The notes under the pieces were generated by a model that searched no databases, had not been told where the DNA came from, and saw only the letters and a program-made list of their open reading frames with translations. Below are positions 1-37,176 of a stretch of DNA of 37,176 bases, in pieces; position 1 is the stretch's first letter, and each line of letters begins with the position of its first letter. Location: the NCBI RefSeq assembly GCF_900187365.1, contig NZ_FYDG01000019.1, positions 1 through 37,176 of the forward strand. The letters run 5' to 3'. A program made the position numbers and the translations under genes. Source of the stretch: Rhodoblastus acidophilus (lineage in GTDB: Bacteria > Pseudomonadota > Alphaproteobacteria > Rhizobiales > Beijerinckiaceae).

Positions 1-95
1 CACGGCGTCGGCGAACACGTCGGGATCCGCGTCGATCGGACAGAGCACGGTCGCGGGATTGTCGATCTTGGCTTTGAGGGCGGGCGAAAAGTCGA
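1..95. repeat. Terminal direct repeat, left copy
   Basis: These 95 bases are identical to the last 95 bases of the window (37082-37176). Both copies lie inside the same glycosyltransferase reading frame. An exact repeat confined to the two ends is what a de Bruijn assembler leaves on a circular molecule, so this is best read as one sequence present twice rather than a biological terminal repeat. Confidence 0.95.
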
Positions 96-1017
96 ATTCG
101 TCCGCACGCTCGGGATGGGTCGACACCAGCGGAATGGCCAGTTGGCTGACGGCCTGAAAACTGCCGCGCCGGGCGCTGACGCCATCGGTGAACGGCAGCA
201 GGATCACGTCGGCGGCGGACAGCGTCGCCATCAGCTCGCCCTCGTCGTCGATCCGCCCCCGGAAATCGAGCCAGTCCGCCACGCCGAGCTGGCCCGCCAG
301 ATCGAAGAAGGCCTGGCGGTCCCCGGGCTTGTCCCAGAGAAAATCGCCGCACACCAGCAGCCGCGCCGTGACGCCGCGTTTGTGCAGGGCCGCGACGACG
401 CGCAACAGCAGATCCGGCCGCTTGCTGGCGTAGAGCACGCCGAAAAAGCCGATGACGATCTCCGCTTGCGCCGCGCCGTCGCCGCGCGTTTTGGCGCGCT
501 CTTGCGCGACGCGGTCCGGGTCGATGCCGACGGGCATGATGTTCGGCCCGATCGGGATGACCGGCGCTGCCTGTTTCTTCGCGGCTCCGACCAGCGGCGA
601 GGTCAAAAACGCCTCGCGCTGCTGGCGCGAGACGAAGATAAAACCGTTCGACGCCAGCAGATCCGGGATCATCGACAGATAGCGCAGCGGATTGAGCGAG
701 GTCCATTCATGCAGGGTGAGGACGATGCGCCCCTTGCGCGTCGCCAGCCGCGCCGCCATCAGCGCCCATCCCGGCGTGAGGCGATTGCCCCAGCCCTCTA
801 TCGGCAGCTGAAAATGCACGATCCGATCTTCGCGTAAAACCTTGACGATCGCGCCGACGAAAGCGAGGGGGCGCTCGGGTTCGATGGTTTCAACCGTGGC
901 GAAGCCCGGCCTGCTGGCGTTGATCGCGTCGCGGAGCCGGTGCGCATAGTCCATCACCGCGCAGGTGACGGGCCGGGCCGAGCCAAAAATCACGACGGAG
1001 GGCGAGGGAGCGTGCAT
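1..1017 (-). CDS. Glycosyltransferase, N-terminal 339 codons (continues at right edge)
   Basis: The ATG is at 1017-1015 and the frame is open to base 1. Joined to 36947-37081 it gives a complete 383-aa protein ending in FSA. The sequence has a GT-B look: an N-terminal acceptor domain (start MHAPSPSVVIFGSARPV), a linker near IVIGFFGVLYASKRPDLLL, and a donor-domain segment DGVSARRGSF like that of GT4-family enzymes. It probably adds a sugar from a nucleotide donor to a lipid-linked glycan on the cytoplasmic face. It lies 67 bp downstream of the Wzy-like gene and its stop overlaps the flippase start by 4 bp, so it belongs to the polysaccharide operon. The donor and linkage cannot be read. No signal peptide or membrane segment is seen. 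Confidence 0.85.
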   Translation of the reverse strand, partial: MHAPSPSVVIFGSARPVTCAVMDYAHRLRDAINASRPGFATVETIEPERPLAFVGAIVKVLREDRIVHFQLPIEGWGNRLTPGWALMAARLATRKGRIVLTLHEWTSLNPLRYLSMIPDLLASNGFIFVSRQQREAFLTSPLVGAAKKQAAPVIPIGPNIMPVGIDPDRVAQERAKTRGDGAAQAEIVIGFFGVLYASKRPDLLLRVVAALHKRGVTARLLVCGDFLWDKPGDRQAFFDLAGQLGVADWLDFRGRIDDEGELMATLSAADVILLPFTDGVSARRGSFQAVSQLAIPLVSTHPERADEFDFSPALKAKIDNPATVLCPIDADPDVFADAV

Positions 1018-1084
1018 GGGCGGGGTCCCGCGACGAGGGCGATTGGGCGCCGTTACGAGCGCTCCAGCGATTTAGCAGCGCCGC

Positions 1085-2371
1085 CTAAATGATCTGTGCA
1101 CGCGGCTCAGCCGTGGTCGTCCCGGCAAGGGGTGGGGCGCCGCCCGTGGCGAGCCAGCGCGCCCGCGCCGCCTCAAGCCCCCAGACGGCCCCGACCGACA
1201 GATAGAACATGCGCCAGTGGTCGATGTCGATCTGTAAGGCCTGGAGGAAATAGACGAACGCCGCCGGAAACAGCACCTGCGCTTGTCGCTGGTAGGGATG
1301 GGAGCGTCCGCACAGCCGGAAACCGACGAAGCCGGTGGCCAGCGCCAGCGCGATGAAGCTGAAGCCCCCCAGCCATCCGTTGGAGGCGAAGGAATTGATA
1401 TAGGAATTATGCGGCTCAAGGCTGAAGGTGAGGCGGAAGCGCAGCGGCCCAAAACCGTTCGGCCGGTCCAGCAGCATCGGAATGGAGCGGACTTGCCGGC
1501 CGAAGCGGCCGTCCGGGCCTTCGTCGTAATCGTGGCCGAGGGACACGCGCTCGGAGAAGGAGGTGCGCATGCTGTCGACGGACAGCGCGCCGCCAACGCC
1601 CACCGCCACCATCATGAGCACGGCGGCCGCGCCGGTGACGATGCGCCTACGCATCCGTCTGGTGTCTGCGGTCACGATCAGGAAGCCGACCATCATCGCC
1701 AGAGCGAAGGCCGTGGCGCCCCAGGACCCGCGCGAGAAGGACAGGAACAGGCCCGCCGCGACGAGGCCGAGGCTTGGCAGCTCAATCCACCAATGTTTCA
1801 TCCGGCCCAGCAACAGCCGTTGCGTGAGCGCGAGGAAACCAATGATCATATAGGAGCCGAGCACGTTCGGATCCTTGAAGAACGCTGTGGCGCGCTCGGC
1901 GCTTTGCAGTTCCTCCAGGCCAAAATTGGCGACCCAGGACAGGATGGCGGCGGCGCCGGCGATGACGCAGCTGACGATATAGGCGCTGAAAAGCAGCTGG
2001 AGACGTCGGGTCGTCCGCTGATACAGGAAGAACGCAAAAAACAGACAGGTAATTGAAAGATAAAGCGTATTGTACATGTAGAGCGACGGATCCGGCTCGT
2101 TCCAATAGGGGATGAGCCCGATGAAGCCGCCCAGCGTCCAAGCCGACAGCAAAATGACCAGCGGCAAGACGGTCCGGTGGATTGAAAATCCGCGCCACGC
2201 CCAGACCCCGATTGTGACGAGGATCAGCAGATCGTAGGGCGCGGGTTCGATGAACACCACGGAGCCGCTGGCGACGGTCAGCCAGAACAGACTTTCCTCC
2301 AGCCGGGGGAAAGAAAACCGTCGTCCCGGCGCAGGTCGCGGCGCGCTGACGAGAGTCTCAGTCATTGTCAT
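1085..2371 (-). CDS. O-antigen polymerase/ligase (Wzy/WaaL-like) membrane protein
   Basis: This 428-aa protein has about ten hydrophobic segments, for example near SGSVVFIEPAPYDLLILVTI and LFFAFFLYQR. It has a large loop before the last membrane spans containing EPHNSYIN (His321) followed by NGWLGG, the pattern of the O-antigen ligase/polymerase family Wzy_C. It would act at the periplasmic face, joining flipped lipid-linked repeat units or transferring chains. The start MTMTE at 2371 overlaps the TGA of the upstream glycosyltransferase as ATGA, which implies translational coupling. A far-upstream start in the same frame (to 3268) only runs antiphase through the neighbouring gene and is discarded. 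Polymerase and ligase cannot be told apart from sequence alone; a flippase in the same operon favours polymerase. Confidence 0.85.
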   Translation of the reverse strand: MTMTETLVSAPRPAPGRRFSFPRLEESLFWLTVASGSVVFIEPAPYDLLILVTIGVWAWRGFSIHRTVLPLVILLSAWTLGGFIGLIPYWNEPDPSLYMYNTLYLSITCLFFAFFLYQRTTRRLQLLFSAYIVSCVIAGAAAILSWVANFGLEELQSAERATAFFKDPNVLGSYMIIGFLALTQRLLLGRMKHWWIELPSLGLVAAGLFLSFSRGSWGATAFALAMMVGFLIVTADTRRMRRRIVTGAAAVLMMVAVGVGGALSVDSMRTSFSERVSLGHDYDEGPDGRFGRQVRSIPMLLDRPNGFGPLRFRLTFSLEPHNSYINSFASNGWLGGFSFIALALATGFVGFRLCGRSHPYQRQAQVLFPAAFVYFLQALQIDIDHWRMFYLSVGAVWGLEAARARWLATGGAPPLAGTTTAEPRAQII

Positions 2372-3540
2372 TGCGCGCGCAAACTGTTCTGGATCGCTTG
2401 CGGTTCGCGCCGCGCCAGCGCGCGCGCATATCCGTCCATGATCGAATCGACCATGGAGGCGATCTGAAAATTGTCTTTGACATATTGCGTCAGCGCCGCA
2501 CACGCGTCCTGCTGCGCCGTCTCGTTCTCTTGCAGGGCGGCGACCATGGCGGCGGCCAGGGCCGCCGGGTCGCCCGGCGGGATCAGCTTGTCGCGGTAGG
2601 GGCCGAAAATCTCCTCCACGCCGCCCACGGCGGCGGCGATGAGGGGCCGGCCGCAAGCGATCGCCTCGAGGAACATATAGGGCAGGGATTCGACGCGGCT
2701 GGGCGCGACGACAATGCGGCCGGCCGCCAGGGCTTTTTGCGCGGGCTGCGGATCGCGCATCGTGATGTGACGGGACAAGCCGGATTGTTCGACCAGCGCC
2801 GCGAGGGCTTCGCGGTCTGGTCCCGAGCCGATAATGACCAGCCGCGGCGCGAACTGACCGCCGGCGTGGATTTTGGCGAGGGCCTCGATCAAAATGTCGA
2901 CGCCCTTGCGCGCCGCCAATTCGCCGACATAGACGAATTCGGCCGCGTCGGGCGGCGGCGTCACCTTGACGAAATCCCCGGCGCAGACGCCGTTGCGGGC
3001 CACATTCACCAGCGCCGCGCCCGGTCCGATCTCGCTGGCGTATTTTCGCGCCATATAATCGCTCTCGAACTGCAGAAGATCGGTTTGGCGTCCGAGCAGG
3101 CGCTCGGCCAGCATGTAGGCGCGATGGCCGGCGACCTGATGGAAGCTGCCGCCATGCGGCGTATAGACGCGCGCCGGGCGCTTGGGCAGCGGCAAAAAGC
3201 CGGTCAACCGCGCGTAAAGGCCGCCCTTTGCGCCATGCGCATGGACGATGTCCGGCCGCAGCCGCCAAATGCGCGCGTAAGTGCGCGCCAGCACCGAGAG
3301 ATCGCCGAGATGCGGCTCGCGATGCATGGGGAAGCGCACGACGCCCAGCTTCATGCGCGGCGCGATCGCCGCCAGCTGTTGCTCGGCGCGTTCGCCGCCG
3401 GCGAGGGAATCGACGATCAGCCCGACCTCGTGGCCGCGAGACGCCTGTTCGCCAGCCAAATCCATCACATGCCGAAACAGGCCGCCGACCGGCGCTCTGA
3501 AGACATGAAGAATTCGCAGGCTTTTTTCGTTGGAACGCAT
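2368..3540 (-). CDS. GT4-family glycosyltransferase
   Basis: This 390-aa GT-B enzyme starts MRSNEKSLRILHVF. The N-terminal domain has the glycine-rich AP.GGLFRHV motif, and the C-terminal donor domain has YVGELAARKGVDILIEA and VAPSRVESLPYMFLEAIACG, containing the EX7E pair of retaining GT4 enzymes. It probably transfers a sugar to a lipid-linked repeat unit in the cytoplasm. I chose the ATG at 3540 because GGGAG lies six bases upstream; ATGs at 3561 and 3570 are possible but have poorer ribosome sites. It is the first gene of a minus-strand operon continuing into the Wzy-like gene (4-bp overlap), a second glycosyltransferase and a Wzx-like flippase. Confidence 0.9.
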   Translation of the reverse strand: MRSNEKSLRILHVFRAPVGGLFRHVMDLAGEQASRGHEVGLIVDSLAGGERAEQQLAAIAPRMKLGVVRFPMHREPHLGDLSVLARTYARIWRLRPDIVHAHGAKGGLYARLTGFLPLPKRPARVYTPHGGSFHQVAGHRAYMLAERLLGRQTDLLQFESDYMARKYASEIGPGAALVNVARNGVCAGDFVKVTPPPDAAEFVYVGELAARKGVDILIEALAKIHAGGQFAPRLVIIGSGPDREALAALVEQSGLSRHITMRDPQPAQKALAAGRIVVAPSRVESLPYMFLEAIACGRPLIAAAVGGVEEIFGPYRDKLIPPGDPAALAAAMVAALQENETAQQDACAALTQYVKDNFQIASMVDSIMDGYARALARREPQAIQNSLRAQ

Positions 3541-3831
3541 CGTGACTCCCGGTCCCCTCATGATGATCATGATAATTTGCCGGAGTTAATGAACGCTGGG
3601 CTTTGGACTGAGCGGCGGGGAGACGGCGGCGTAAAAATCGACGGCGTTTCGGTCATATCCTGAGATCATAACGCCCAGAAGTTTGCGCCGCGCTTCTCTA
3701 TGAGAGCAGCGTTTTCGCCTGCCGAACTTCAGCAAAACTCTGTGTTGATCGCCGTTTCAATTTTCCGGGGCGTGGGGCGTGGCCGCCAATTGCGTCAGCT
3801 GGACGCAAGGAGAGCGGCGTCAGGACGCGGT
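3541..3831. other. Intergenic region upstream of the polysaccharide operon
   Basis: This gap separates the minus-strand polysaccharide operon from the divergent repeated module. It must hold the operon promoter, but I cannot assign a convincing -35/-10 pair. The 8-bp palindrome ATGATCAT lies just upstream of the GT4 start. The short open frames here lack ribosome sites and protein-like composition. Nothing else is recognisable. Confidence 0.5.
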
Positions 3832-3917
3832 AAGTTGCGGCAACGTGGAAAACCGTTAGGATTCCTGTTCGGCTCGCTGATTTGCTGTTGAGTCGCGAAC
3901 TAAAGGACAGACCCTAG

Positions 3918-4039: not shown

Positions 4040-4099
4040 GATGAGATTTTTTGCGCCGGATTTCGGCCCTTTCCGAGCGGGCGACCGAACGGAGAGACG

Positions 4100-4882
4100 A
4101 TGCAACACGCACACACCGCCGCAGCCGTTTTGGCCGCGCTGAGCGGCGCAAAATCCTTGTCTGTTTTGGACGGGATCGCCCGGACGATCTGGACCGACTG
4201 GGCCAGCGGACAACTGACCGACGACCAGGCGGGAACGCTGGCCGAAATGCTGGAGCGCCGGAAAAACGAGGTGCGCGGCGCCGACACGGTCGCCGCGCGC
4301 GCGCCAAATGTGAGCGCCGCCGCCAGGGCGCAGGGGCGGCCGAGCCATTTCCCGCCGAAGCGCAAACAGCCAGCATCGCCCAACCGGCGGGCGTCGATCG
4401 AGCGGCGGCGGCGGCTGGCCTGCTCCGGCCCGATGCCGCCAACCCTGGCCTGCCTGTTCACAACCGGCGAACTCGCGGTGTTGCGCATCGTCGCCGACGA
4501 GGTGCGTGACCACCGGCAATGCCGCCTCACCCTGGGCGAGATTTCCGCGCGCGCCGGCGTCGGGATCACCACCGCGCGCAACGCCCTGCGCTATGCGGCG
4601 CGCGAGGGGCTTGTGACCATTGAGGAGCGCCGGCGCGACAAGCGGCCGAACCTGTCCAATGTGGTGCGGATTGTTTCAAGGGAGTGGATGGTCTGGATCG
4701 CGCGCGGCCGCAAGCAGACTGCGCGCGTGTTTTCCTCCGGGGGAGGAGGGTGCAAAAAAGCGGAGTCCACGGATATTGCTTCTTCCAGAAGCTCATGTGG
4801 AGAACGCGCAAAACGCGTTCAACTCTCCAAAAAGATCGCCCGAAAACCGTCAGAACAAAAGTTGCGCACACAATCCCAATAG
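4100..4882 (+). CDS. Winged-helix DNA-binding protein, candidate plasmid replication initiator (copy 1)
   Basis: This 260-aa basic protein starts at an ATG preceded by GGAGAG. Residues 143-200 form a winged helix-turn-helix (LTLGEISARAGVGITTARNA, then a wing rich in Arg/Lys). A very basic linker with RRASIERRRR lies before it, and the C-terminal 50 residues are polar and variable. It is about 85 percent identical by eye to the protein at 27922-28701, and residues 50-205 are almost unchanged. No recognisable Rep protein (RepC, RepA_N or rolling-circle type) is present elsewhere, and these genes sit next to partition genes in the second copy. A replication initiator is therefore the best guess by elimination. 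A plasmid-borne transcription regulator is the alternative. Confidence 0.6.
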   Translation: MQHAHTAAAVLAALSGAKSLSVLDGIARTIWTDWASGQLTDDQAGTLAEMLERRKNEVRGADTVAARAPNVSAAARAQGRPSHFPPKRKQPASPNRRASIERRRRLACSGPMPPTLACLFTTGELAVLRIVADEVRDHRQCRLTLGEISARAGVGITTARNALRYAAREGLVTIEERRRDKRPNLSNVVRIVSREWMVWIARGRKQTARVFSSGGGGCKKAESTDIASSRSSCGERAKRVQLSKKIARKPSEQKLRTQSQ

Positions 4883-5194
4883 ACGCGGCTTCGCCGCGAA
4901 AAGCTTTACGATAAGAAAGGCGGAAACCGTTCGCGCCAGCAGACGGTGCGAAAAAACGCGCCTGTCCAAAAAACGGCGCCAGAGAGGGCGCCTGCAGATC
5001 GTCCGCGCCAAGCTCCTCATTCGTCATGCGGGAGTAAGCATAATGCAAATCTTTTCCTAGCGTCGTGTGTCTGTATTGATCTGCCTCAAGGAAGAGGCGT
5101 TCCGTTTTGATCCGTTCTTGGTCTTCGCCGTTGAGCATCTCAGACGTTCGCGCGACGTTTTGGCGACCTGACCAGGATGATCAATGGGGGCGAT
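4883..5194. other. Intergenic region with post-stop hairpin
   Basis: Directly after the winged-helix stop lies a CGCGGC-TTC-GCCGCG hairpin (4884-4898), also found after copy 2 at 28704-28716. It has no T-run, so it is a weak terminator or mRNA-stability element. The rest is probably the promoter region of the prenyltransferase gene. The open frames crossing here on the minus strand are antiphase to the winged-helix gene and are not credible. Confidence 0.5.
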
Positions 5195-6652
5195 ATGAAG
5201 ATTGCAACAGAAGCCGCCGTTCCGGCGCCCGCCTGCGCGCCGCTGGTGGTCGATCTGGACGGCACGCTCATCACGAGCGATCTTCTGGTGGAATCCGCCT
5301 TCGCTCATCTCGGACAAAACCCGCTGCGCGCCGGCGGATTGCTGGCGGCGCTGTTTCGCGGCAAGGCGGCGCTCAAGGCGCGGATCGCGGTGGAAACCGG
5401 GATCGACGCCGCGCATCTGCCTTATGATCCCGCGGTGATCGAGCTGATCGAAAAGGCCCGCGCCACCGGGCGCCCGGTCTATCTCGCCTCGGCCAGCAAC
5501 GCGCGTTACGTCGGCGCGGTGGCGGAACATCTCGGCCTGTTTCAGGGCTGGTTCGCCTCGACCGCAAGCGAGAACCTGTCGTCGGCGGCCAAGGCGGAAC
5601 GTCTGGTCCAGGCGTTTGGCGAAGGCGGGTTCGATTATGTCGGCAATGATTCCGCTGATTTGAAGGTCTGGGCCAAGGCGCGCCGGCGGATCGCCGTTCA
5701 TCCGTCCCGCGCCGTCGAAAGGAAGTTGCTCGGGCTCGATCCCGCCGCCGTCGTGCTGCGGCGTGACGCGTCCCATTTGCGCAACTGGGTCAAGCTGTTG
5801 CGGGTCCATCAATGGGCCAAGAACGCGCTGGTCTTCGTGCCGATGGTCACCGCGCAACGCTGGGATCTCGTCTCGTTCGGCCACGCTCTGGCGGCGTTCG
5901 TCGCCTTCTCCCTCGCCGCCTCGGGCATTTACCTCATCAACGATCTCGTCGACCTCGACGCCGACCGCAAGCACCTCTCGAAGAAGCGCCGTCCGCTCGC
6001 TTCAGGCGCGATCCCGGTGCTTGACGCGATGATCGTCGCGCCCATTCTGGTCACGCTGGCCGTTCTCGGGAGTTTGGCGCTCAATCCCTGGTTCACCGCC
6101 GTTCTGCTCGGCTATATCTCGCTCACCACCGCTTACACCTTCGTCCTGAAGCGCAAGATGATGATCGACGTGGTCGCGCTGGCCATGCTCTACACGCTGC
6201 GGGTGATCGGCGGCGGGGCGGCGATCGCCGTGCCCATTTCGGAATGGCTGCTGGCGTTTTCGATGTTCATCTTCGTGGCGCTGGCCCTGGTCAAACGCTA
6301 TACGGAGCTGGCCGGGCGCCTGGACGCCGACCTGCCCGATCCGCCCAATCGCAATTATCGCAAGATCGACCTCGACATTGTCGCGGCGCTGGCGGCGGCT
6401 TCGGGCTTCAACGCGCTGACCGTGTTCACGCTCTACATTTCGTCGAACGCCGTGTTGAACCTTTACCCCCATCCCCAGGCGCTCTGGTTGATTTGCCCGA
6501 TCCTTATGTATTGGATCGGGCGCATCCTCATGCTGGCGCACCGACGGATGCTGAACGACGATCCCATCGTCTTCGCGCTCACCGATCGAAACAGCCTGGC
6601 GGCCTTCGGCTTCATCGGGTTGATCTTGATCGTGGCGGCGAAAAGCTTTTGA
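5195..6652 (+). CDS. HAD-UbiA fusion prenyltransferase (decaprenyl-phosphate phosphoribosyltransferase-like)
   Basis: This 485-aa protein fuses an N-terminal HAD phosphatase domain (DLDGTL at residues 20-25, later YVGNDSADLKVW) to a polytopic UbiA domain from about residue 190. The UbiA signature NDLVDLDAD is at 249-257. Such fusions transfer phosphoribosyl from PRPP to polyprenyl phosphate in the membrane (Rv3806c-like activity); the HAD domain could then remove the 5-phosphate. The start at 5195 has GGGGG four bases upstream; an ATG at 5177 is less well placed. The next gene, 24 bp downstream, is a large membrane protein that could use the lipid-linked pentose. No DprE1/DprE2 epimerase pair is present. 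Family assignment is firm; the exact substrate is inferred. Confidence 0.85.
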   Translation: MKIATEAAVPAPACAPLVVDLDGTLITSDLLVESAFAHLGQNPLRAGGLLAALFRGKAALKARIAVETGIDAAHLPYDPAVIELIEKARATGRPVYLASASNARYVGAVAEHLGLFQGWFASTASENLSSAAKAERLVQAFGEGGFDYVGNDSADLKVWAKARRRIAVHPSRAVERKLLGLDPAAVVLRRDASHLRNWVKLLRVHQWAKNALVFVPMVTAQRWDLVSFGHALAAFVAFSLAASGIYLINDLVDLDADRKHLSKKRRPLASGAIPVLDAMIVAPILVTLAVLGSLALNPWFTAVLLGYISLTTAYTFVLKRKMMIDVVALAMLYTLRVIGGGAAIAVPISEWLLAFSMFIFVALALVKRYTELAGRLDADLPDPPNRNYRKIDLDIVAALAAASGFNALTVFTLYISSNAVLNLYPHPQALWLICPILMYWIGRILMLAHRRMLNDDPIVFALTDRNSLAAFGFIGLILIVAAKSF

Positions 6653-25948: not shown

Positions 25949-25959
25949 AGGGTGTGTCC

Positions 25960-27860: not shown

Positions 27861-27921
27861 GATGAGATTTTTTGCGCCGGATTTCGGCCCTTTCCGAGCG
27901 GGCAACCCGAACGGAGAGACG

Positions 27922-28795: not shown

Positions 28796-29377
28796 CTAAA
28801 ACCTTTCAGGCTTTTTGACCGCCCGCTCTTTCGAGATGAGACGGGAGATGGTTGAGCGGTGAATCTTGAAGATGCGGGCCATTTCGGCGGCGGATTTTCG
28901 GCCTGATCTGACGGCGTCCAGGATTTCCCGGCATTGTTCGGCGGTGAGTTTCGGCTTTCGACCGGGAACCCGGCCCTTTTCGCGCGCTTCATGCAGTCCG
29001 GCGCGGGTGCGTTCGCGGATCATTTCGCGTTCGAATTCGGCAAACGCGCCGAGCATGTGCATCATCATCCGGCCAGCGGGACCAGACGTGTCGATCGCTT
29101 CAGTCAGAGAGAGGAATTTGCCGCCGGCGGCCTCGATGCGCTCGAGGATGACGATCAGGTCTTTGAGCGAGCGCGACAGGCGATCGAGCTTCCACACCAC
29201 CAGCGTGTCCCCGGCGCGAAATTGGTCGAGCAGTCGATGCAGCTCGGGCCGGTCCCACCGCCCGCCCGAGGCGGCTTCCTCGAACAATTTTTCGCATCCC
29301 GCCTGTTTGAGGGCGCGGATTTGCGCGGCGGTTTCCTGGGTCTCGGTTTTGGAAATGCGGGCGTAGCCGAGCAGCAT
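28796..29377 (-). CDS. Serine recombinase/resolvase (Tn3-resolvase/invertase type)
   Basis: This 193-aa protein starts MLLGYARISKTETQETAAQI, with catalytic Ser9. WKLDRLSRSLKDLIVILERI supplies the conserved Arg cluster, AFAEFEREMIRERTRAGLHE is the long E-helix, and SAAEMARIFKIHRSTISRLI is the C-terminal HTH. It is full length for the family. I chose the ATG at 29377; the frame is open much further upstream, but that part has no family similarity. It probably resolves plasmid multimers or cointegrates at the dyad 15 bp upstream of its start. Confidence 0.92.
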   Translation of the reverse strand: MLLGYARISKTETQETAAQIRALKQAGCEKLFEEAASGGRWDRPELHRLLDQFRAGDTLVVWKLDRLSRSLKDLIVILERIEAAGGKFLSLTEAIDTSGPAGRMMMHMLGAFAEFEREMIRERTRAGLHEAREKGRVPGRKPKLTAEQCREILDAVRSGRKSAAEMARIFKIHRSTISRLISKERAVKKPERF

Positions 29378-29392
29378 GTGTGTTGCGTCTTC

Positions 29393-29420: not shown

Positions 29421-29587
29421 GGATTGCGCAAATGCAAGCCCTTGATGGGACAGGCGGGGCGAGGGAACGGCGCATTGTTGCGAAAACGACCGTTTATGCA
29501 GCGGGACCGCGCTGGAAACCCGCATCGGCTTCCGCGAAGATGCGCAAAATGTCTGTTCGCGGCGCAAGCCAACATGCGGGACCAAGC

Positions 29588-30306: not shown

Positions 30307-31836
30307 TCAGGCGATCTGCAGCGCTTTCAAAATCGGCAGGTTCTTGTCGGCGAAGGTCTGCGCCTGCGCGCTGAGTTCGGCGAGATTCTCCTCGGCGGTT
30401 TCCAGGGCCTTGCCGTCCTTGACCAGTTTCTGGCCTTGCGCGCCAAGAATCTGCCAGGCGTGCTTCGCCCATTCGGCAGGCTGCTTCCTGTGCTGGGAGG
30501 CGCTCAACAGGAACAATTGCTGGAAGCGGTTGACCGCAAAGCCGCCGCCGGCGACCGGGCTGGCCAGGAAGCCGATGTCGTTGCCGCCCCGGGCCTTGTT
30601 GCAGAGATGGGCGTTGAGCCGGTCGGTCTGCTTCCTGACCTTGCCGATCACCGACTCGTCCTGCGCCAGCGCCAGATGGCCGGAGCTGGCCAGCACCATG
30701 GCGGCCTGTGTGACCTGCGCCAGACCGACGCCTTTGACCCCCTGTTCGATCTGGCCGAGGGTTCTGATCTTGTGGTCGGCCATCAGGTCGAGGATCGGGG
30801 CGTAAATGGCTTCGCTCATGTTGGCTTCGCCCACGGCGCCCTTGACCTTCAGCGAGACATCCGCGCGCGGGCTGGCCAGGACGACTCTTTGGGCGCGCAG
30901 CGCCTCGGCCTGCTCGAGGGCGTTGAGCCGCCGCGCCCCCTTCACCCAATAGTCGCGGCGGAACTGCTGGTTGACCATGAAGTCGCGCGTGGTCTCGCGG
31001 AACATGGCGTCGGGGATCTCCTTAAGGAAGGCCTGTTGCTCGGCCGTGAGGTTCACCGCGTCGATATGGTCGAGATAGTGCGCGGAGCCGGCATACTGAA
31101 CCTTGGCGCCTTCCAGCCATTTGGCCATGGTGGCGAAGTGCATGGGATGCCAGTCGCGATTGAAATATTCGTGCGCCAGATAATGCCTGTTGTGCGCCTT
31201 CAACTGCTTCAGCCGCTCGCCCACCTGCGGGTTGGCGCGACTGAACAGGGGGTTGGAGGCCAGCAGCTTTTCGGCGAAATCGATGGCGCCGTCGATGCGG
31301 CTGACAATGCCCCGGCCTTCCGACCCCAGCACGTCCGCATGTTCGGTCATCAGATGGCGCATCGGCGCGAAGGCGGCCCAACCCGGCAGCGTGTTGTAGC
31401 TGATGTAGAGCACGCCCCCCACTTTGAGCTTCTTGCGGACGAAATCGACGATGACCTGGCGGTTTTCGTCGCTGATCCAGCTCCAGATGCCGTGCAGGCA
31501 GATGTAGTCGAAGTCGGGCAGATCGGGGCGGTTGGCGAAATCGGCGAAAGCGTCGTCATACAGCGCGGCCCCTGACCCCGAGGCGGCGGCGAGCTCCTGG
31601 GCGAAGCCGGCCTGGCTGGGGTTGAAATCGGCGCCATGCCATCGCGCCGGTCCGGCGGCGGCGTGAATGTTGGCGGAAAGGCCCTGGCCGAAGCCGAGTT
31701 CGCAGGCGGCGCCGATTTGCGGACAGACCAGCCCCTGGTTGAGAAGCGCAAGCTGCGCCTGCACCGGGTTCAGTTCGGCGTAATAGCCATAGGTATAGCC
31801 GATGTCGGCCACGTAACCGGCGGTCCAGTCGCTCAT
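30307..31836 (-). CDS. SAM-dependent methyltransferase with methyltransferase regulatory domain
   Basis: This 509-aa protein has a class I methyltransferase fold: ACELGFGQGLSAN at 44-56 is the SAM-binding glycine motif, LPDFDYICLHGIWSWISDEN and VGGVLYISYNTLPGW follow. After it comes the regulatory domain (about 215-300, with NRHYLAHEYFNRDWHPMHFA and FRETTRDFMVNQQFRRDYWV) and a long C-terminal part. Proteins of this type are found beside surface-protein and glycan genes and may methylate a sugar or the surface protein. It lies downstream of the S-layer-like gene on the same strand but behind a strong terminator, so it is probably transcribed separately. The substrate is unknown. Confidence 0.88.
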   Translation of the reverse strand: MSDWTAGYVADIGYTYGYYAELNPVQAQLALLNQGLVCPQIGAACELGFGQGLSANIHAAAGPARWHGADFNPSQAGFAQELAAASGSGAALYDDAFADFANRPDLPDFDYICLHGIWSWISDENRQVIVDFVRKKLKVGGVLYISYNTLPGWAAFAPMRHLMTEHADVLGSEGRGIVSRIDGAIDFAEKLLASNPLFSRANPQVGERLKQLKAHNRHYLAHEYFNRDWHPMHFATMAKWLEGAKVQYAGSAHYLDHIDAVNLTAEQQAFLKEIPDAMFRETTRDFMVNQQFRRDYWVKGARRLNALEQAEALRAQRVVLASPRADVSLKVKGAVGEANMSEAIYAPILDLMADHKIRTLGQIEQGVKGVGLAQVTQAAMVLASSGHLALAQDESVIGKVRKQTDRLNAHLCNKARGGNDIGFLASPVAGGGFAVNRFQQLFLLSASQHRKQPAEWAKHAWQILGAQGQKLVKDGKALETAEENLAELSAQAQTFADKNLPILKALQIA

Positions 31837-31900: not shown

Positions 31901-31931
31901 CAAAAATCCCGCCCCTTTTGAGGGGCGGGAT
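31901..31931 (-). terminator. Strong Rho-independent terminator after S-layer-like gene
   Basis: ATCCCGCCCC (31906-31915) and GGGGCGGGAT (31922-31931) form a perfect 10-bp stem. On the minus strand it is followed by TTTTTG. This is the strongest terminator in the window and ends the S-layer-like transcript 45 bp after the stop codon. Confidence 0.88.
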
Positions 31932-31950
31932 CGAAGTTTACGGGATCTTC

Positions 31951-31975: not shown

Positions 31976-34900
31976 TTAGACCAGCGTGAGGGCGCCGGAG
32001 GTAGTGGCCGTCGCGACGAAGGTCGCCGTGCTCAGATCCACCAGACCCGTCAGCTTGACGACCGAGTCGCCGGCGTTCTGGAAGGTCGTAGCCGCGGAGT
32101 TGTCTTCCACGACATAAGTGTTGCCGTTGTATTGGAACCAACCCAACTTGGCGTTGGTGGAGCCGTCGCCAACCGTCGCCGCATCCAGGTAATCCTGGAA
32201 GACAGCCGTATCGGCGAGGGCAACCTTGGCGGATGTCCAGGCCGTCGTGCCGGAGATCTGGCCTGCATCGGTAAATACGATCTGCAGGCTGGCGTGGGCG
32301 TCGGTGATCGTGCTGTAGCTGTTGCCGTTAGCCGTCACACCCGCAAAGGTCACAACGTCCGCGCCGGTTCCGGTGGTGATGGTGTTGACGCCACTCAGTG
32401 TTGCGCTGCCCAAAGTCACGGTGTCCACGCCGGCACCGCCGGTATAGACGTTGTTGCCGATGGTCGCCGTGAAGGTGTTGGCGCCATCGCCCAGGCTGAC
32501 GGTGTTGTTGCCCGTGGTCACCGTCACCGAGTCAGTGCCGGTCGCGGTGCTGTCGATGGCGTAGTTGCCAGTGTCGCCGGTCACCGTGTTGTTGGTGGCG
32601 CCGCCGCCAAGGTGGATGATGTCCGCCTTGCCGTTGGTCGCGGTGATGACGTCGGAGCCCGTGCCGCCGGTGTAGGTCACAGCGCCGCCAGTGGCCGCAC
32701 TGAAGTCCACAGTATTGGTTCCGGTGGCGCTGCCCTTGATCGCCGCCGCCGCCGCCAGGGCGCCGGAGGTGAAGGTGAACCCGCCGAGGCTGATGCCGCT
32801 GGCGTCCAGGCTGGTCAGGGCCGTGTCGGTCGCGGTCAAGGTCAGGCCGGCGTTGCCGGCGACCGTGATGGCCTTTGCGCTGTTGCCCAGAACCGTCAGA
32901 GTGTCATTGAAGCCGCCGGTGGGCGTCGTCTGCGTGTCGGCCGTGGTGATGTTCAGGGTTTCGACGCCGGCGGCGGTGAGACCCGTGGTGGCAAAGGCGA
33001 CGCCAGCGTTAGACCCGTCGGTCAGGGTGACGTTGAGCACGTCGCTGGAACCGGTGGCGGTGGCCAGGTTGGCGGTGTAGGCGGTGCCGGCGCCGGTCAG
33101 CACCAACGTGCCATTCGCCGCATAGTTGTTGAGCGTCAACCCGTTGCCGCCAGAAGCCGACACATAGTTGAGGTTGCCCAGAGCCGCCAGATCAATCGTC
33201 TGGTTCGTCGCGCCAGTCAGGGTCAGGTGCTCAAAACCGGTCACCACGGCGGCAAAGGCGGCGGAGCCGGAGGCGGTCGCCGCATTGGCGCCAGTCATCT
33301 GCAGCGTGTCGGTGCCATTGCCGGCAGAGATCGCAGCCGTCGGCAATGTGCCGTTGGTGAGGATCAGAGTGTCGTCGCCATCGCCGAGGGTCACGGCTTT
33401 GGTCGCGGCGGTGTTGGACAAGGTCACCTTGTCGGCGCCCGAACCGCCTTCATAGGTCGCCTTGCTGATGTCGACGGTCACAGTCATCGCGCCAGAGGTG
33501 GCGGAGGCGTTCACGTCCGTCACCGTGGAGCCGGAAAGGTCGGCGGTCAGGCCGGCGGAACCGGAGACGGCCACGGTCTTCAGGGCGCTCAGGCCAGCCG
33601 TGGAGGTCAGCGTCAGGCCCTTGGTTCCCGCCACCGTCAGGGCCGTCACGGCGCCTTCGGTGATGTTGGCCAGGGTCGAGTTGGCGCCGGTCGTGGTGAC
33701 GTTCAACGTCGTGTAGACGTCGGCGTCATCCAGGGTGCCGCCGGTCAGGCCGTTGACCGTCAGACCGAGGGTCTTGTTGGTCGGCGTGGTCAGACCGCTG
33801 TTGTCGATGATGATGTTGCCGGAGCCGTTGGCCACGCTCAGGGTGGTCAGGGCGGTGTCGGCGATGCTCAGCGCGGTGTAGCCGCTGACGGAGGCGGCGG
33901 CGATCGTGCCGGCCGTGGTGGTGGAGCCGGCGTTGACGTCGTTGATGGCGACGGTGCTTTCGGCGACGCCCGCCACAGTGCCGGAGGCGGTCGCCGGCGC
34001 GGCGTTGTTCACGATGACGGCGGTGGTGTTGGCCGTGCCGGTCACGGTCACGGCGCCCATGGTCGTGGTCGTGTTGACCGCGTTGCCATTGGCCTGGGTG
34101 ATGGTGACGGTGGCGCCGCCGTGGACGTCGATCGCGCCCATGGTGACGTTGCCGGTCGACGTGTTCGAGATCGTCACCGCGCCGGTCGGCGCCGTGGTCG
34201 TGCCAACCGTAATCGTGCCGGTGGTCGCGCCGGTCGCGGCGATATTGACGGAGGTTCCGCCGTCAACGGTGATGGCGCCGGCCGCCAGCGCCGTGTCCAC
34301 GGCCTTCAGAGCAGTCTTGCTGCCCAGCGACAGGGTTTCGCCGCCAACGGAAACCACGTTCTCGGTGGTCAGGCCGGTCCAAGCCGAGGTGTCGGCGGCC
34401 ACGGTGCTCGAGCTGGTCAGGTTGGCGGTCTGGATGTTCTTGACGGTGGTGCTGGCCGTCAGAGAGATGCCCGCCGTTTGCGAGGCATTGAGGGTGTTGA
34501 CGCCGGCGCCGCCGTCGATCGAGTCCAGGGGGGTCAAAGTGGCCACGCCGCCCGCGCCCTTGGTGGCGTCGAAGAGATCGTTGCCGTTGCCGCCGGTGAA
34601 GGCCGAGCCGCTGTCAATGCCGGTGGTGAGCGTGAAGGTCTGCGCCACCTGGGTGTTGAGCGTGAACAGCGTGCCGCCCGACGGAGGCGTGCCGGCGCCG
34701 AGCAGGCTCTGGTAAGCCGAAATGCCGGAGGAGACGCCATTGGCGAATTCAGTGGAGTTCACGCAGAGCGCAAGGGCGTTGGCCACGCTCATGCCGGAGC
34801 CGACCCAGTTGGCCACTTCCCCAGCCGTCGGAGCGCGGTTCAGGAAGTTGTTGTAGAATTGGGTGATCACCGCGGTGTTGATCGTGGCGGAGCCGTCAAC

Positions 34901-35233
34901 GCCGAAAATAGCTTGGAATTCAGTGCCATAGGCGAACTGGCTCACCATCCAGCTGAACGAATTCGGGTTGTGCGCGAGATGGTCGACCCACACGTTCAGG
35001 CCGTCGGTGTCTGGCAAGCGGCCGAAGGCGGCCTGATAAAGACGGATGATCGGGTTGGTGATGTTCTGAACGAAGGGTTCGGACTCGAGCGCGGTGTAGA
35101 CCTGAGCCATGGTCAACGTGCCGTTGTTCAGGCCGGCGTTGTAGACCGCGAGGCTGGCCGCATCCAGCGTGGCGTTCGCTTGGCCAGAGATCGCCGACCA
35201 GGCGGCGTTCAGGTTCGGTGTGTAATCAGCCAT
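31976..35233 (-). CDS. S-layer-like/RTX-type secreted protein with DUF4214 domain
   Basis: This 1085-aa protein has no signal peptide. Residues 61-165 form a DUF4214 region (IIRLYQAAFGRLPDTDGLNV, FLNRAPTAGEVANWVGSG). From about 200 on it is a repetitive beta-rich sequence heavy in Thr, Ala, Gly, Val and Asn, with degenerate RTX-like turns (GGNGNDLF at 214-221, DSIDGGAGVNTLNA, later GGTGSDVITATNGKADIIHL). The C-terminus, FQYNGNTYVVED...VVKLTGLVDLSTATF ending in LTLV, resembles the uncleaved signals of RsaA-type S-layer proteins. It has a single Cys (157). It should be exported by the type I system at 10.6-15.1 kb and cover the cell. GAGG lies upstream of the ATG. It is the largest gene here and probably highly expressed. 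Confidence 0.87.
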   Translation of the reverse strand: MADYTPNLNAAWSAISGQANATLDAASLAVYNAGLNNGTLTMAQVYTALESEPFVQNITNPIIRLYQAAFGRLPDTDGLNVWVDHLAHNPNSFSWMVSQFAYGTEFQAIFGVDGSATINTAVITQFYNNFLNRAPTAGEVANWVGSGMSVANALALCVNSTEFANGVSSGISAYQSLLGAGTPPSGGTLFTLNTQVAQTFTLTTGIDSGSAFTGGNGNDLFDATKGAGGVATLTPLDSIDGGAGVNTLNASQTAGISLTASTTVKNIQTANLTSSSTVAADTSAWTGLTTENVVSVGGETLSLGSKTALKAVDTALAAGAITVDGGTSVNIAATGATTGTITVGTTTAPTGAVTISNTSTGNVTMGAIDVHGGATVTITQANGNAVNTTTTMGAVTVTGTANTTAVIVNNAAPATASGTVAGVAESTVAINDVNAGSTTTAGTIAAASVSGYTALSIADTALTTLSVANGSGNIIIDNSGLTTPTNKTLGLTVNGLTGGTLDDADVYTTLNVTTTGANSTLANITEGAVTALTVAGTKGLTLTSTAGLSALKTVAVSGSAGLTADLSGSTVTDVNASATSGAMTVTVDISKATYEGGSGADKVTLSNTAATKAVTLGDGDDTLILTNGTLPTAAISAGNGTDTLQMTGANAATASGSAAFAAVVTGFEHLTLTGATNQTIDLAALGNLNYVSASGGNGLTLNNYAANGTLVLTGAGTAYTANLATATGSSDVLNVTLTDGSNAGVAFATTGLTAAGVETLNITTADTQTTPTGGFNDTLTVLGNSAKAITVAGNAGLTLTATDTALTSLDASGISLGGFTFTSGALAAAAAIKGSATGTNTVDFSAATGGAVTYTGGTGSDVITATNGKADIIHLGGGATNNTVTGDTGNYAIDSTATGTDSVTVTTGNNTVSLGDGANTFTATIGNNVYTGGAGVDTVTLGSATLSGVNTITTGTGADVVTFAGVTANGNSYSTITDAHASLQIVFTDAGQISGTTAWTSAKVALADTAVFQDYLDAATVGDGSTNAKLGWFQYNGNTYVVEDNSAATTFQNAGDSVVKLTGLVDLSTATFVATATTSGALTLV

Positions 35234-35681
35234 AGGGCAACCTCAAATTCGTGATGGGTCGTTGGGCGCAGAGCTCCCGAATCAACCGGAACAATCGGCG
35301 AGAGCGCAACCATAGCGTGTGTACAGGAAATCATATACTCAGCCAAGCGCTTTTTGGCTTTCCTAAGGCGGTAAGGCCGTCCGAACCCCCTCGGCCGGGG
35401 CGCCTTCTCCCTGCGGAAATATCTTCATAAGATATTGTTTTATAATCATTAGTTCTCGGGGGTGTCGCGTCGGCTTCTCAGGCGGCGCGCGCGGGGCGCG
35501 GCGATGGACTCCGTATTTCCCGGCCCCGATTCAGGGCGATGTGACACAAATGTGTTCAGATCGCGCGCGCCCTCAATACACGCATGACGTGCGTAAATCA
35601 GCGGCGGCCAGAAGGGTTGAAATCGTTCGATTTATCGCGCGCAAGGCGCCGCGCGGCGCCGGGGTTTCCGGCCGTCGTCGC
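35234..35681. promoter_or_regulatory. Upstream region of the S-layer-like gene
   Basis: This 448-bp gap follows the flippase and must carry the S-layer-like promoter and a long 5' leader. A perfect inverted repeat AATATCTT-CAT-AAGATATT at 35418-35436, next to an AT-rich block, is the main candidate operator or promoter element. A GC-only palindrome GGCGCCGC/GCGGCGCC near 35646 lies just past the flippase stop but lacks a T-run. An ACGCA/TGCGT dyad sits near 35580. No ORF here is convincing, and no -35/-10 pair could be set. Confidence 0.5.
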
Positions 35682-36950
35682 TCAGCCGGCGTAGAAGAAA
35701 ATTCTCTGCTCGCGGTCTTCATGGATGTGGCGCCAGCGCCAGATGAAAATGTAGACCGCGGCCAGAATGGAGGCCCAGCCCACGCCGGGCAGGCCGACCA
35801 GCGGGACCAGCACGGCGTTGCCGCCGACCGCCGGGATCAGGAACAACAGATTGCCCAGCCAGATCGCGCGGTCCTGATTGCGGGCGTACAGCACGAAATT
35901 GAGCATTTCCGAATTCAGGCGAATCCAGACGCCCAGCAGCATTAGCCAAAGCGTCGTGGCGCTGTCCATGATCAGGGGCCGCCCGGTATAAGAGCCCAGG
36001 ATCGGAACCGCGATGGCGAACAGCAGCGCCATGCCGCCGCCGATCACCGCCATTTGCTGGATCGCCTGCCGCGCCTCACGCCGGAACATGTCCGTTTCGC
36101 CTTCTCTGTGCAGGGCGATCAGGCGCGGATAGGCGAAGGCCAGCACGCTGCTTTGCATCAGATTGCCCAGCGCGTTGGCGAAGGAAAAGAAGAAGGTGAG
36201 AACGCCGACGTCGTCGAGCGTGAGAAAGCGTTCAACCAGGAAGCGGTCGACGAACAAGCCGGCCGTGGCGCCTATGCCGCCCAGCCAGATCGGCCAGCAT
36301 TTCTTGAGACCGCGCCGGATCCAGCCCCAATCCACGGGCCTGCGCAAGGCCTCGCCCCACGGCATCGCCCGCCACAGCACGAGATTCAGCGCGACGGCCA
36401 GCGTCGCGCCAATCAACCACGCCGACAGCACGACCTCCGCCGTGCGCAGGGAGGGATAGAGCCAGCCGAGCAGCACGACGGGAAACACGAACGCCGCCCG
36501 AATGAAGAAGATGACATTGGCCAGGAGCTGCTGGTTCATGGAATTGGCGTTGTCATACAACGCGCTGGCGTAGCCCTCCACGATCGTCAGCAGCACCGTG
36601 ATCATGACGAGTTGGGGCGATATCGTAATCGTGTGGGTGATGACGCCGAGGATCGCCAATAAAATCAGCACGCCGTAATTGATCGAATACAGCAGCGCCT
36701 GATCGCGCATCTTGTGAAGCGCGGTCAGCGGCGTCGCGCCGACAACGTCTCGCGTCACAATATAGTCAAAACCCTGGCCCAGCACGGCGCGCAGCACCGT
36801 GACCACCCCGAACGCCAGCCCATAGACGCCCATATCGGCCAGCGACAAATATTTGCCCATGTAAAGCGTGAGCAAAAGTTTCGCGCCCAGCGGCAACAGA
36901 CGCAAAAGCGTATTGGCCAGACGCGTCTTGGAGCTGGGACTCATCGTCAT
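35682..36950 (-). CDS. Wzx-like polysaccharide flippase
   Basis: This 422-aa protein has about twelve to fourteen membrane spans (MGKYLSLADMGVYGLAFGVV, VIFFIRAAFVFPVVLLGWLY, WPIWLGGIGATAGLFVDRFL), characteristic of the polysaccharide transporter/MVF-like flippases. It would turn lipid-linked repeat units from the cytoplasmic to the periplasmic face for the Wzy-like polymerase encoded upstream in the same operon. ATG 36950 overlaps the stop of the glycosyltransferase as ATGA; a second ATG at 36944 is possible. It is the last gene of the operon and precedes the S-layer-like gene on the same strand. Confidence 0.88.
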   Translation of the reverse strand: MTMSPSSKTRLANTLLRLLPLGAKLLLTLYMGKYLSLADMGVYGLAFGVVTVLRAVLGQGFDYIVTRDVVGATPLTALHKMRDQALLYSINYGVLILLAILGVITHTITISPQLVMITVLLTIVEGYASALYDNANSMNQQLLANVIFFIRAAFVFPVVLLGWLYPSLRTAEVVLSAWLIGATLAVALNLVLWRAMPWGEALRRPVDWGWIRRGLKKCWPIWLGGIGATAGLFVDRFLVERFLTLDDVGVLTFFFSFANALGNLMQSSVLAFAYPRLIALHREGETDMFRREARQAIQQMAVIGGGMALLFAIAVPILGSYTGRPLIMDSATTLWLMLLGVWIRLNSEMLNFVLYARNQDRAIWLGNLLFLIPAVGGNAVLVPLVGLPGVGWASILAAVYIFIWRWRHIHEDREQRIFFYAG

Positions 36951-37176
36951 GCGCTGAATCGATCCGCAGCGTTCCCGCCGCCCAGCGTGTCATAGAAGGC
37001 GAGATGCGCCCGCGCCGCCTCGGCCCAGGATTGGGCGAGGGAAACGCCGATCGCGTCTGCGCGGCGGGCGAAGGCGGCGCGCACGGCGTCGGCGAACACG
37101 TCGGGATCCGCGTCGATCGGACAGAGCACGGTCGCGGGATTGTCGATCTTGGCTTTGAGGGCGGGCGAAAAGTCGA
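36947..37176 (-). CDS. Glycosyltransferase, C-terminal part (continues from left edge)
   Basis: This frame enters from the right edge and stops at TGA 36949-36947 after FYDTLGGGNAADRFSA. Its first codons inside the terminal repeat (LCPIDADPDVFADAV) are the same as the last codons of the frame at 1-1017, in the same phase, so the two are one gene of 383 codons plus a stop on the circle. The C-terminal helix is typical of GT-B enzymes, in which the last helix returns to the N-terminal domain. The stop overlaps the flippase start by 4 bp. Confidence 0.88.
   Translation of the reverse strand, partial: DFSPALKAKIDNPATVLCPIDADPDVFADAVRAAFARRADAIGVSLAQSWAEAARAHLAFYDTLGGGNAADRFSA
37082..37176. repeat. 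Terminal direct repeat, right copy
   Basis: Identical to bases 1-95. Removing one copy closes a circle of 37,081 bp and restores one unbroken glycosyltransferase gene. Confidence 0.95.

Follow-up and report, generated by a model that had tools for sequence, protein, structure and literature searches.

For phages and predators, surface (S-) layers are both receptors and barriers; in Gram-negative bacteria they are usually regarded as fixed chromosomal traits. In Caulobacter, a type I exporter and glycan genes are found on the same replicon as rsaA. An S-layer/megaplasmid rearrangement is known from Geobacillus; it was not named among the literature matches listed (ten of 30). The roles of RsaA domains in Caulobacter crescentus are described in the available part of PMC12175726. 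According to the available part of PMC11784438, known outer-membrane protein-lysine methyltransferases (OM PKMTs) act on cell-surface proteins, the known substrate of KmtA (OM PKMT A) of Acinetobacter sp. Tol 5 being an adhesin, a trimeric autotransporter; the substrates in bacteria without trimeric autotransporters are left open there by the authors. Rhamnose-operon biofilm plasmids of roseobacters are also known (PMC10090131, available part).

The DNA analysed here (the window, 37,176 bp) is a single whole contig of a 4.71-Mb draft assembly of 74 contigs. We estimate at roughly 55% the probability that it is a maintained surface-coat plasmid, on which an exported RsaA-type lattice would be methylated and carried on a polysaccharide altered by plasmid genes. 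As in the RsaA system, the lattice, C-terminal region and fold are homologous, the helical anchor is probably RsaA-like, and type I exporter and glycan genes share the replicon with the S-layer gene; the window differs in its plasmid location, its DUF4214 anchor, the adjoining lysine-methylase homologue and an exporter that is not adjacent.

The contig ends are identical over 95 bp and match no other contig of the draft. Closing the contig at these ends yields a circle of 37,081 bp, on which an uninterrupted 383-aa glycosyltransferase, GT1 (Pfam glycosyltransferase group 1), spans the junction. The closure is supported by gene order, because joining GT1 gives the series Wzx, GT1, Wzy, GT2, which is contiguous and in the same order in another genome of the genus (G005). 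Two ParA genes (23959..24633 and 25954..26610, plus strand) were recognised, the first being followed by a gene for a small protein (24630..24950, plus strand) that has no Pfam match and is, by position, a probable partition partner. The maintenance genes also include a BrnT toxin (26979..27245, plus strand) and a serine resolvase (28796..29380, minus strand); the BrnA antitoxin gene (27133..27540, plus strand) probably has its real start downstream. Two copies of a possible replication protein, for which we coin the name RepX, are encoded at 4100..4882 and 27862..28701 (plus strand); they are 85% identical over 247 aa, and plasmids of Methylocystis and Methylosinus carry matches to the gene at 72-73% identity. 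The presence of two RepX modules suggests a composite replicon. An IS66 remnant lies at 25395-25697. Judged from the ends, the restored GT1 and the ParA, BrnT-BrnA, resolvase and RepX genes, the window is a small circular plasmid, as was originally predicted.

The 1085-aa protein encoded at 31976..35233 (minus strand) was identified by homology and predicted structure as an RsaA-type S-layer protein. A phmmer comparison with RsaA (1.2e-67) covered residues 196-821 (lattice) and 903-1076 (C-terminus) of a layout consisting of a helical DUF4214 anchor domain (residues ~1-195), a beta-rich lattice region (~200-1085) and a conserved C-terminal region. When a model of the full protein, based on a hand-picked alignment of ten sequences with row L117 left out, was compared with the PDB using Foldseek, the top six matches were all RsaA (1e-30 to 1e-25), while the next match scored 0.19; the best RsaA match had a TM of 0.57 by target and an rmsd of 12.9, probably due to domain shifts. 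A model of the N-terminal anchor (pLDDT 85), based on seven hand-picked sequences after exclusion of the badly aligned L131 and one L144 row, best matched 6t72, the RsaA N-terminal domain bound to LPS, with a probability of 1.00 but with an E-value of only 0.01 and a TM of only 0.48. The RsaA-like S-layer protein named in the original prediction is therefore upheld by sequence and by predicted structure, with an anchor domain that is probably RsaA-like. The protein contains four GGxGxD-like glycine/aspartate motifs of the calcium type, and its 16 lysines are all located at residues 225-1060.

The nearest relatives of the lattice region and of the neighbouring methylase are found in Beta- and Gammaproteobacteria and those of the anchor domain in Alphaproteobacteria; we therefore read the S-layer protein as a chimera. 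None of ten same-genus genomes had an S-layer match, a miss that is weak evidence because few candidates were scored per genome (seven at most, and two at most in a second S-layer search). In a tblastn search of plasmids with the whole protein, no match among those listed covered more than ~20%; the matched places, among the matches listed (40 of 53 records), fell in the DUF4214 half, for which the low-complexity filter is perhaps responsible. With the C-terminal 94 aa as query, one plasmid was matched, that of Ruegeria TM1040. A terminator-like hairpin (31905..31932, minus strand; 12-bp stem and T-rich tail, a consensus match only) is located between the S-layer and methyltransferase genes. 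Terminator-like sites in the S-layer region were below expectation (three versus 5.1 expected from shuffles), and a sigma-70 promoter scan of this region found nothing.

The gene at 30307..31836 (minus strand) codes for a homologue of protein-lysine methyltransferases of the PKMT/KmtA kind (PF10119), a probable S-layer modifier; what had been predicted as a methyltransferase is thus present and can be described more precisely. Homology to Rickettsia PKMT1/2 was 1e-15, and Asp70 and His115 align with the AdoMet-binding pair described in the available part of PMC11784438. The neighbour here is an S-layer protein, as opposed to the trimeric autotransporter or OmpB of the systems described in that part of the source. 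To survey neighbours, the best 80 of at least 572 confirmed methylase loci were used, the top query row being the window's own methylase; "genes" were our own ORF picks, present at -1 in 75 and at +1 in 75 of the 80 loci, with full flanks in 42. An ORF was called surface-like when it was 500 aa or longer and A, G, T, S, N, D and V made up 68% or more of it, a threshold chosen after a first look at the neighbours. Among these best 80 loci, a surface-like ORF was directly upstream of the methylase at 16 of 75 loci, compared with 14 such ORFs among the 713 genes elsewhere in the loci (Fisher p 5e-10, a value that is too small since the loci are not phylogenetically independent). Immediately upstream of the methylase, as in the window, is an RsaA-like gene at L069, L092, L106 and L127, in G333 and on the Ruegeria plasmid. 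The S-layer protein, being the neighbour, is the likely substrate, and the methylase probably modifies it. Lysine bias was considered as a sign of methylation and rejected: the K:R ratio of adjacent surface proteins (432:99) is nearly the same in non-adjacent ones (353:126), so the bias does not discriminate. In the literature covered, outside which most subscription papers fall, neither S-layer lysine methylation nor a natural plasmid-borne RsaA-type S-layer was found.

The dedicated exporter of the original prediction is represented by a type I secretion permease/ATPase, PrtD (10573..12324, TIGR01842), a HlyD-type periplasmic adaptor (12321..13721, TIGR01843) and a TolC-family outer-membrane channel (13751..15127, TIGR01844), all on the plus strand and above NCBIfam cut-offs, and relatives of this exporter adjoin RsaA-type or other surface proteins elsewhere. 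On the minus strand are an HTH regulator (10025..10348), conserved beside PrtD/HlyD in related modules, and, beside it, a 492-aa protein of unassigned function (8550..10028) whose N-terminal ~130 aa are conserved. Rhabdaerophilum, G025, Duganella and the Ruegeria plasmid all have the genes for surface protein, methylase and exporter next to one another. A search of related plasmids recovered much of the predicted set: exporter, methylase and exported cargo recur on other alphaproteobacterial plasmids, with RsaA-like cargo on one only (Ruegeria TM1040), and glycosyltransferase genes occur with the exporter on four of seven related plasmid stretches by annotation, being not so annotated on the other three. 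The 131-kb conjugative plasmid NC_008042 of Ruegeria sp. TM1040 shares with the window PrtD (49%), HlyD (37%), the methylase (61%), an RsaA-like protein of 1081 aa, the HTH gene with its unknown partner and glycosyltransferases, but is larger, is typed conjugative and carries a cargo that is only distantly alike. The 53.7-kb Rhodospirillum rubrum plasmid NC_007641 shares the methylase (47%), PrtD (53%), HlyD (45%), HTH (52%) and glycosyltransferases, but has RTX-like rather than RsaA-like cargo and annotated replication genes of other types. A literature search for phenotypes of the R. rubrum plasmid gave nothing relevant among the matches listed.

Polysaccharide genes occupy much of the remainder. 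On the minus strand are those for a Wzx-like flippase (35682..36950), GT1 (3' part 36947..37176, 5' part 1..1017, crossing the contig ends), a Wzy-like polymerase/ligase (Wzy_C, 1085..2371) and GT2 (2368..3570, Pfam glycosyltransferase group 1/family 4). Of the predicted Wzx/Wzy pair, Wzy is above the Pfam cut-off, while the Wzx match is weak (20.8 versus a cut-off of 28.2 bits). The six glycosyltransferases, the UbiA enzyme and the O-acyltransferase are all accounted for: Pfam also recognised GT3 (16533..17585, minus strand) and GT4 (17564..19795, minus strand) as family 2, GT5 (20142..22667, plus strand) as family 2 with a WbsX domain and GT6 (22219..23820, plus strand; true start probably near 22664) as group 1, and the plus strand further encodes a HAD-UbiA prenyltransferase (5177..6652, NF006088) and an acyltransferase (15328..16536, PF01757, GC 48%). 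A 577-aa protein beside UbiA (6677..8410, plus strand), hydrophobic by inspection and with a DUF6798 match just below cut-off, has no obvious coat role, nor do a DnaJ-domain protein and the HTH and 492-aa gene pair; apart from these, the statement that most genes fit a coat holds for the gene set. Like the roseobacter biofilm plasmids, the window is an alphaproteobacterial plasmid with surface-polysaccharide genes; it differs from what the available part of PMC10090131 describes in its RsaA-type cargo, in replication genes unmatched to theirs and in that no rhamnose (rml) operon was recognised among the plasmid ORFs scanned.

Among the same ORFs we recognised neither an initiating sugar transferase nor Wza/Wzc nor any nucleotide-sugar gene, and a complete Wzx/Wzy pathway (initiating transferase, Wza and Wzc alongside Wzx/Wzy) is not found on the plasmid. 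Homologues of the initiating transferase (WbaP), Wza and Wzc are on host contig C36, which stops shortly after its glycosyltransferase, and the plasmid Wzy is the sole Wzy match in the source assembly. By gene content, the plasmid sugar-polymer genes still depend on the host chromosome. The idea of one mobile coat survives insofar as the coat gene set lies on one plasmid; Wza, Wzc and WbaP are absent from it, and neither a relaxase nor type IV secretion genes were recognised among the plasmid ORFs scanned (those larger than very small ORFs).

We infer the following course of events. The 1085-aa protein would be methylated by the neighbouring KmtA-type enzyme on lysines of its lattice region, and then exported in one step, via its C-terminal signal, through the plasmid PrtD-HlyD-TolC. 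Outside the cell, it would bind calcium and assemble into an RsaA-type lattice, held on the outer membrane by binding of the N-terminal DUF4214/RsaA-like domain to surface polysaccharide. The plasmid Wzx/Wzy and glycosyltransferases, with the host initiating transferase and Wza/Wzc, may alter this polysaccharide; that the plasmid glycan is the S-layer anchor is the least certain part. Speaking against this explanation are the 12-17 kb that separate exporter and S-layer gene on the circle and three further PrtD-type exporters above cut-off in the source genome.

In C58, an 8,086-bp contig of the draft, the two ends are likewise identical over 95 bp, and therefore the overlap alone is no proof of a circle; this contig carries pyruvate kinase, and none of the five ORFs scanned on it is a plasmid gene. 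In addition, the Wzx-GT1-Wzy-GT2 block (81-85% at the aa level) sits in a chromosome-type context in G005, next to topA, OTCase, pyruvate kinase and cyclophilin genes. That the window is a chromosomal piece with ends matching by assembly accident is nevertheless very improbable, given that these ends match nowhere else in the assembly, that joining them restores a known gene order, that ParA, toxin-antitoxin, resolvase and plasmid-type RepX genes are present, and that contig C28 of the source assembly, which carries the genes flanking the G005 block, continues past the site with the block absent. Somewhat short of an even chance is the reading that the replicon carries two unrelated cargoes, an S-layer/methylase/exporter module and a host-genus EPS cluster, with no joint function. 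All ten same-genus genomes examined had a Wzy match and none an S-layer match, and the whole G005 block stands beside chromosome-type genes without an S-layer; both results go against the original view of glycan and S-layer genes as one unit. The homologous Wzy/GT genes of G007 are grouped with Wza/Wzc/WbaP-type genes on a 4.13-Mb contig, and the Beta/Gammaproteobacterial affinities of lattice and methylase and the two RepX modules point the same way, whereas the glycosyltransferases that accompany the exporter on four of the seven plasmid stretches argue for a link.

The protein might also be an RTX protein of the secreted, matrix (biofilm) or adhesin type that has an RsaA fold and forms no closed crystalline layer, making the window a roseobacter-like biofilm plasmid. 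The homologous modules on the R. rubrum and Rhizobium rhizoryzae plasmids have cargo closest to RTX proteases/toxins, not RsaA (with an additional weak RsaA match, 5e-8, for the latter), biofilm plasmids with polysaccharide genes are already known (PMC10090131, available part) and an adhesin is the known KmtA substrate (PMC11784438, available part). We consider this unlikely, as RsaA homology spans lattice and C-terminus, no other fold rose above background and the anchor domain too is probably RsaA-like, at the E-value and TM given above. Equally doubtful is action of the methyltransferase on the glycan or on another outer-membrane protein instead of the S-layer protein: its homology is to protein-lysine methylases, and RsaA-like genes adjoin it upstream at the loci named above. 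Even so, at 63 of the best 80 loci the methylase is not directly adjoined by a surface-like ORF within the stretch examined, so the family must have other substrates too, and several outer-membrane proteins are targets of Rickettsia PKMTs (PMC11784438, available part).

Returning to the surface-coat plasmid, we tentatively suggest, with less confidence than we give the two-cargo alternative, a transferable cassette in which a lattice of Beta/Gammaproteobacterial origin, accompanied by its own lysine methylase, was joined to an anchor from Alphaproteobacteria that binds glycan and suits the new host; by plasmid, cells would thus swap in a crystalline, lysine-methylated coat. Such a cross-class chimera would be a concrete model for an S-layer adapting to a new host's glycan. 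Compared with known surface and biofilm plasmids, the testable new point is a possible lysine-methylated S-layer. Gene adjacency makes RsaA-type and other exported surface proteins direct candidate substrates for KmtA-type methylases; if true, S-layers would be the third substrate class of the family, after OmpB and AtaA. With layer, exporter and modifying enzyme on a plasmid, a cell could gain or lose its coat with that plasmid, and the coat would become a gain-or-loss trait, which two plasmids, that of the window and that of Ruegeria TM1040, make testable.

The 1085-aa S-layer protein of the window (31976–35233, minus strand) matches RsaA by sequence at 1.2e-67, over residues 196–821 and 903–1076. 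A full-length AlphaFold model derived from an alignment of ten sequences was mostly confident over residues 200–1085 (overall mean pLDDT 74.6, pTM 0.60), and in a Foldseek search with it the first six PDB hits were all RsaA (E 1e-30 to 1e-25), followed by RTX proteases from E 0.19. Residues 1–195, poorly modelled there, lie within a segment (residues 1–210) that, modelled alone, yielded a good and nearly all-helical model (pLDDT 85); its best PDB hit was 6t72, the RsaA N-terminal domain with bound LPS (probability 1.00, E 0.01, TM 0.48), with none below E 0.001. From the sequence and model matches we therefore conclude that the lattice part is RsaA-like. The anchor part is, less surely, predicted to be so as well. 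The original prediction of an RsaA-like S-layer protein is thus strongly supported, also by the structural comparison it proposed. A search of 100 relatives gave five matching genomes at E 0.001, the source genome at the plasmid copy only and four others in the DUF4214 region only; in a class-wide draw, 3 of 384 other genomes matched at 1e-12. No match was found in ten same-genus genomes, but absence from relatives is not proven because few candidates were scored per genome.

The methylase gene, METHYLTRANSFERASE (30307–31836, minus strand), is located 139 bp downstream of the S-layer gene. The original prediction had listed it among the coat genes as a methyltransferase. PDB relatives of its product were confined to protein lysine methyltransferases 1 and 2 of Rickettsia (1e-15), and judged by sequence it does not look like an obvious glycan enzyme. 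Asp70 and His115, invariant across 12 aligned sequences, align with the AdoMet-binding Asp and His of PKMT1 (PMC11784438). The same source shows that a relative, KmtA, methylates more than 130 lysines of AtaA, an adhesin of Acinetobacter, and states that these enzymes may target other outer-membrane proteins where a species lacks such adhesins.

A scan of named genomes confirmed at least 572 relatives of the methylase, of which the best 80 were kept. Among these 80, a large A/G/T/S/N/D/V-rich ORF was found directly upstream of the methylase at 16 of 75 loci, on the methylase strand in every case (16/16), directly downstream at 1 of 75, and in 14 of 713 cases at positions −8 to −2 and +2 to +8; at 63 of 80 loci neither side carried such an ORF within the stretch examined. 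In the same best 80 of 572, an ORF scoring at least 100 bits to the window S-layer protein was present at 13 loci and PrtD at that score at 15, while PrtD or a surface-like ORF occurred at 33 (including 21 of the 42 loci whose flanks were complete). The gene directly upstream of the methylase is RsaA-like in another genome (G333) and at four further loci (L069, L092, L106 and L127). The S-layer protein is a likely substrate of the KmtA-type methylase. All 16 of its lysines fall within residues 225 to 1060, and its three arginines before 134. Lysine bias was rejected as a sign of methylation, because surface proteins away from the methylase share it (432:99 in adjacent versus 353:126 in non-adjacent surface proteins; 9942:20084 in other locus proteins).

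Lattice and anchor appear to differ in origin. Compared window by window, the lattice region shares 44–70% identity with proteins from two MAGs, one of Burkholderiales (L069) and one of Methylomonas (L092), whereas the first 195 residues are only 26–27% identical to them, near chance (scores of 37 against −0.9, SD 11.9, and 13.5 against −3.4, SD 12.2, for shuffled sequences). The two MAG anchors are alike (212 against 14.2, SD 11.8). The window anchor aligns instead with its counterpart in Rhabdaerophilum, an alphaproteobacterium (194.5 against −4.1, SD 13.9), and also with DUF4214 proteins in same-family genomes. A quick methylase tree without bootstrap grouped the window enzyme with Betaproteobacteria (78% identity to its nearest row), the smallest starred set holding 17 rows (the window, 10 Beta, 4 Gamma, 1 Delta and 1 Alpha; SH-aLRT 96), although class labels were mixed throughout, and some row names may be wrong because several rows are MAG contigs. 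The simplest reading would be that a lattice and methylase pair was acquired from another class and fused with a local anchor.

The window corresponds to contig C37 in a draft genome of 4.71 Mb. Its two ends have an identical 95-base sequence in common, which matches no other contig of the assembly, and we therefore conclude that joining them gives a circle of 37,081 bp, in which a 383-aa glycosyltransferase reads across the junction. Independent support for this joining comes from a same-genus genome (G005), where Wzx, the end-spanning glycosyltransferase, Wzy and the glycosyltransferase after it form an unbroken block (81–85% amino-acid identity). Some caution comes from another contig of the assembly, C58 (L194; 8,086 bp), which also has a 95-bp end overlap and encodes pyruvate kinase, a metallophosphatase and a DUF4142 protein, with no plasmid gene among five ORFs scanned. 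A homologue of this pyruvate kinase adjoins the four-gene block in G005. Plasmid-type genes of the window comprise two ParA, BrnT/BrnA and a serine resolvase. RepX, our name for a possible replication protein, is present in two copies, 85% identical to each other, with gene matches (72–73% identical) on plasmids of Methylocystis iwaonis and of Methylosinus sp. C49; no replication initiator was identified in the window by family match. The RepX regions (3827–4920 and 27646–28739) are ca. 1.1-kb copies, 72–93% identical in pieces, which suggests that the window may be a composite of two plasmids. An IS66 transposase 3' remnant is located at 25395–25697, and a DnaJ-domain protein is encoded at 29432–30256, between the resolvase and the methylase.

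PrtD, HlyD and TolC (10573–15127, plus strand) all scored above curated cut-offs. Homologues of the HTH protein, the 492-aa protein, PrtD, HlyD and the methylase occur together in a 4.6-Mb contig of a same-family genome (G025) and in Rhabdaerophilum, and the set is likewise found on one plasmid each from Ruegeria TM1040, R. rubrum and Rhizobium rhizoryzae. The exporter, the HTH protein and the 492-aa protein have homologues on pAU20e of Aureimonas and pMNOD02 of Methylobacterium nodulans, and the exporter and the HTH protein also in Rhizobium sp. SSA_523; the stretches from these three contained no methylase match. Methylase matches with at least 80% coverage were found in 22 of 72,556 plasmid records. 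We therefore conclude that plasmids which combine an exporter with a surface protein, a methylase and glycan genes are already in sequence records. The cargo varies: the Ruegeria exported protein is RsaA-like (8e-29, RsaA being its only hits), that of Aureimonas mixed (RTX 1e-14, RsaA 1e-10), that of R. rubrum RTX-protease-like, and that of R. rhizoryzae RTX-toxin-like, also matching RsaA weakly (5e-8). RsaA-type cargo is thus the uncommon variant among such plasmids. The Ruegeria record is typed conjugative. Among the window ORFs scanned, neither a relaxase nor a type IV secretion gene was recognised. A 54-kb R. rhizoryzae plasmid (L200) encodes, at 1007–2551, a methylase 58% identical to that of the window; its record is phage-plasmid-like, with capsid, portal and tail genes, ParA and BrnT/BrnA. 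The HTH and 492-aa pair (8550–10348; the 492-aa protein has a conserved N-terminal ca. 130 aa) accompanies PrtD/HlyD on five plasmids (Ruegeria, R. rubrum, Aureimonas, R. rhizoryzae and M. nodulans), in Rhabdaerophilum and in G025, and perhaps controls export or coat expression.

Wzy matches (59–83% identical, two with an internal stop) were present in all ten same-genus genomes searched, and S-layer matches in none of these ten. In one of them (G007), Wzy is accompanied, in a 4.13-Mb contig, by Wzc-like, Wza-like and initiating-transferase genes; the four-gene block of G005 is surrounded by genes for topA, OTCase, pyruvate kinase and cyclophilin. In the source genome, the topA region (contig C28) continues past the corresponding place without the block, and the only Wzy match is the plasmid copy. 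The block occurs in chromosome-type and plasmid contexts and may have moved in either direction between them. Contig C36 of the source genome carries DNA homologues of Wza, Wzc and the initiating transferase, so the plasmid by itself probably cannot make the polymer; a second Wzy may lie in an assembly gap, since C36 ends shortly after a glycosyltransferase. The acyltransferase gene (15328–16536) has a GC content of 48%, versus 59–66% in the other modules computed, and is perhaps a late arrival.

The original prediction was right about gene content, S-layer, exporter, glycan and maintenance genes all being recognised. Its idea of one plasmid carrying one swappable coat is well founded for the S-layer, methylase and exporter, but not for the link to the plasmid glycan; a joint coat function of the whole plasmid is thus attractive and in part unsupported. 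RsaA, type I export, KmtA-type methylases and alphaproteobacterial biofilm plasmids (PMC10090131) were already known. Within the scope of our searches, the new elements are a small plasmid bearing an RsaA-type layer, a lattice/anchor chimera, and an S-layer as the likely substrate of a KmtA-type methylase.
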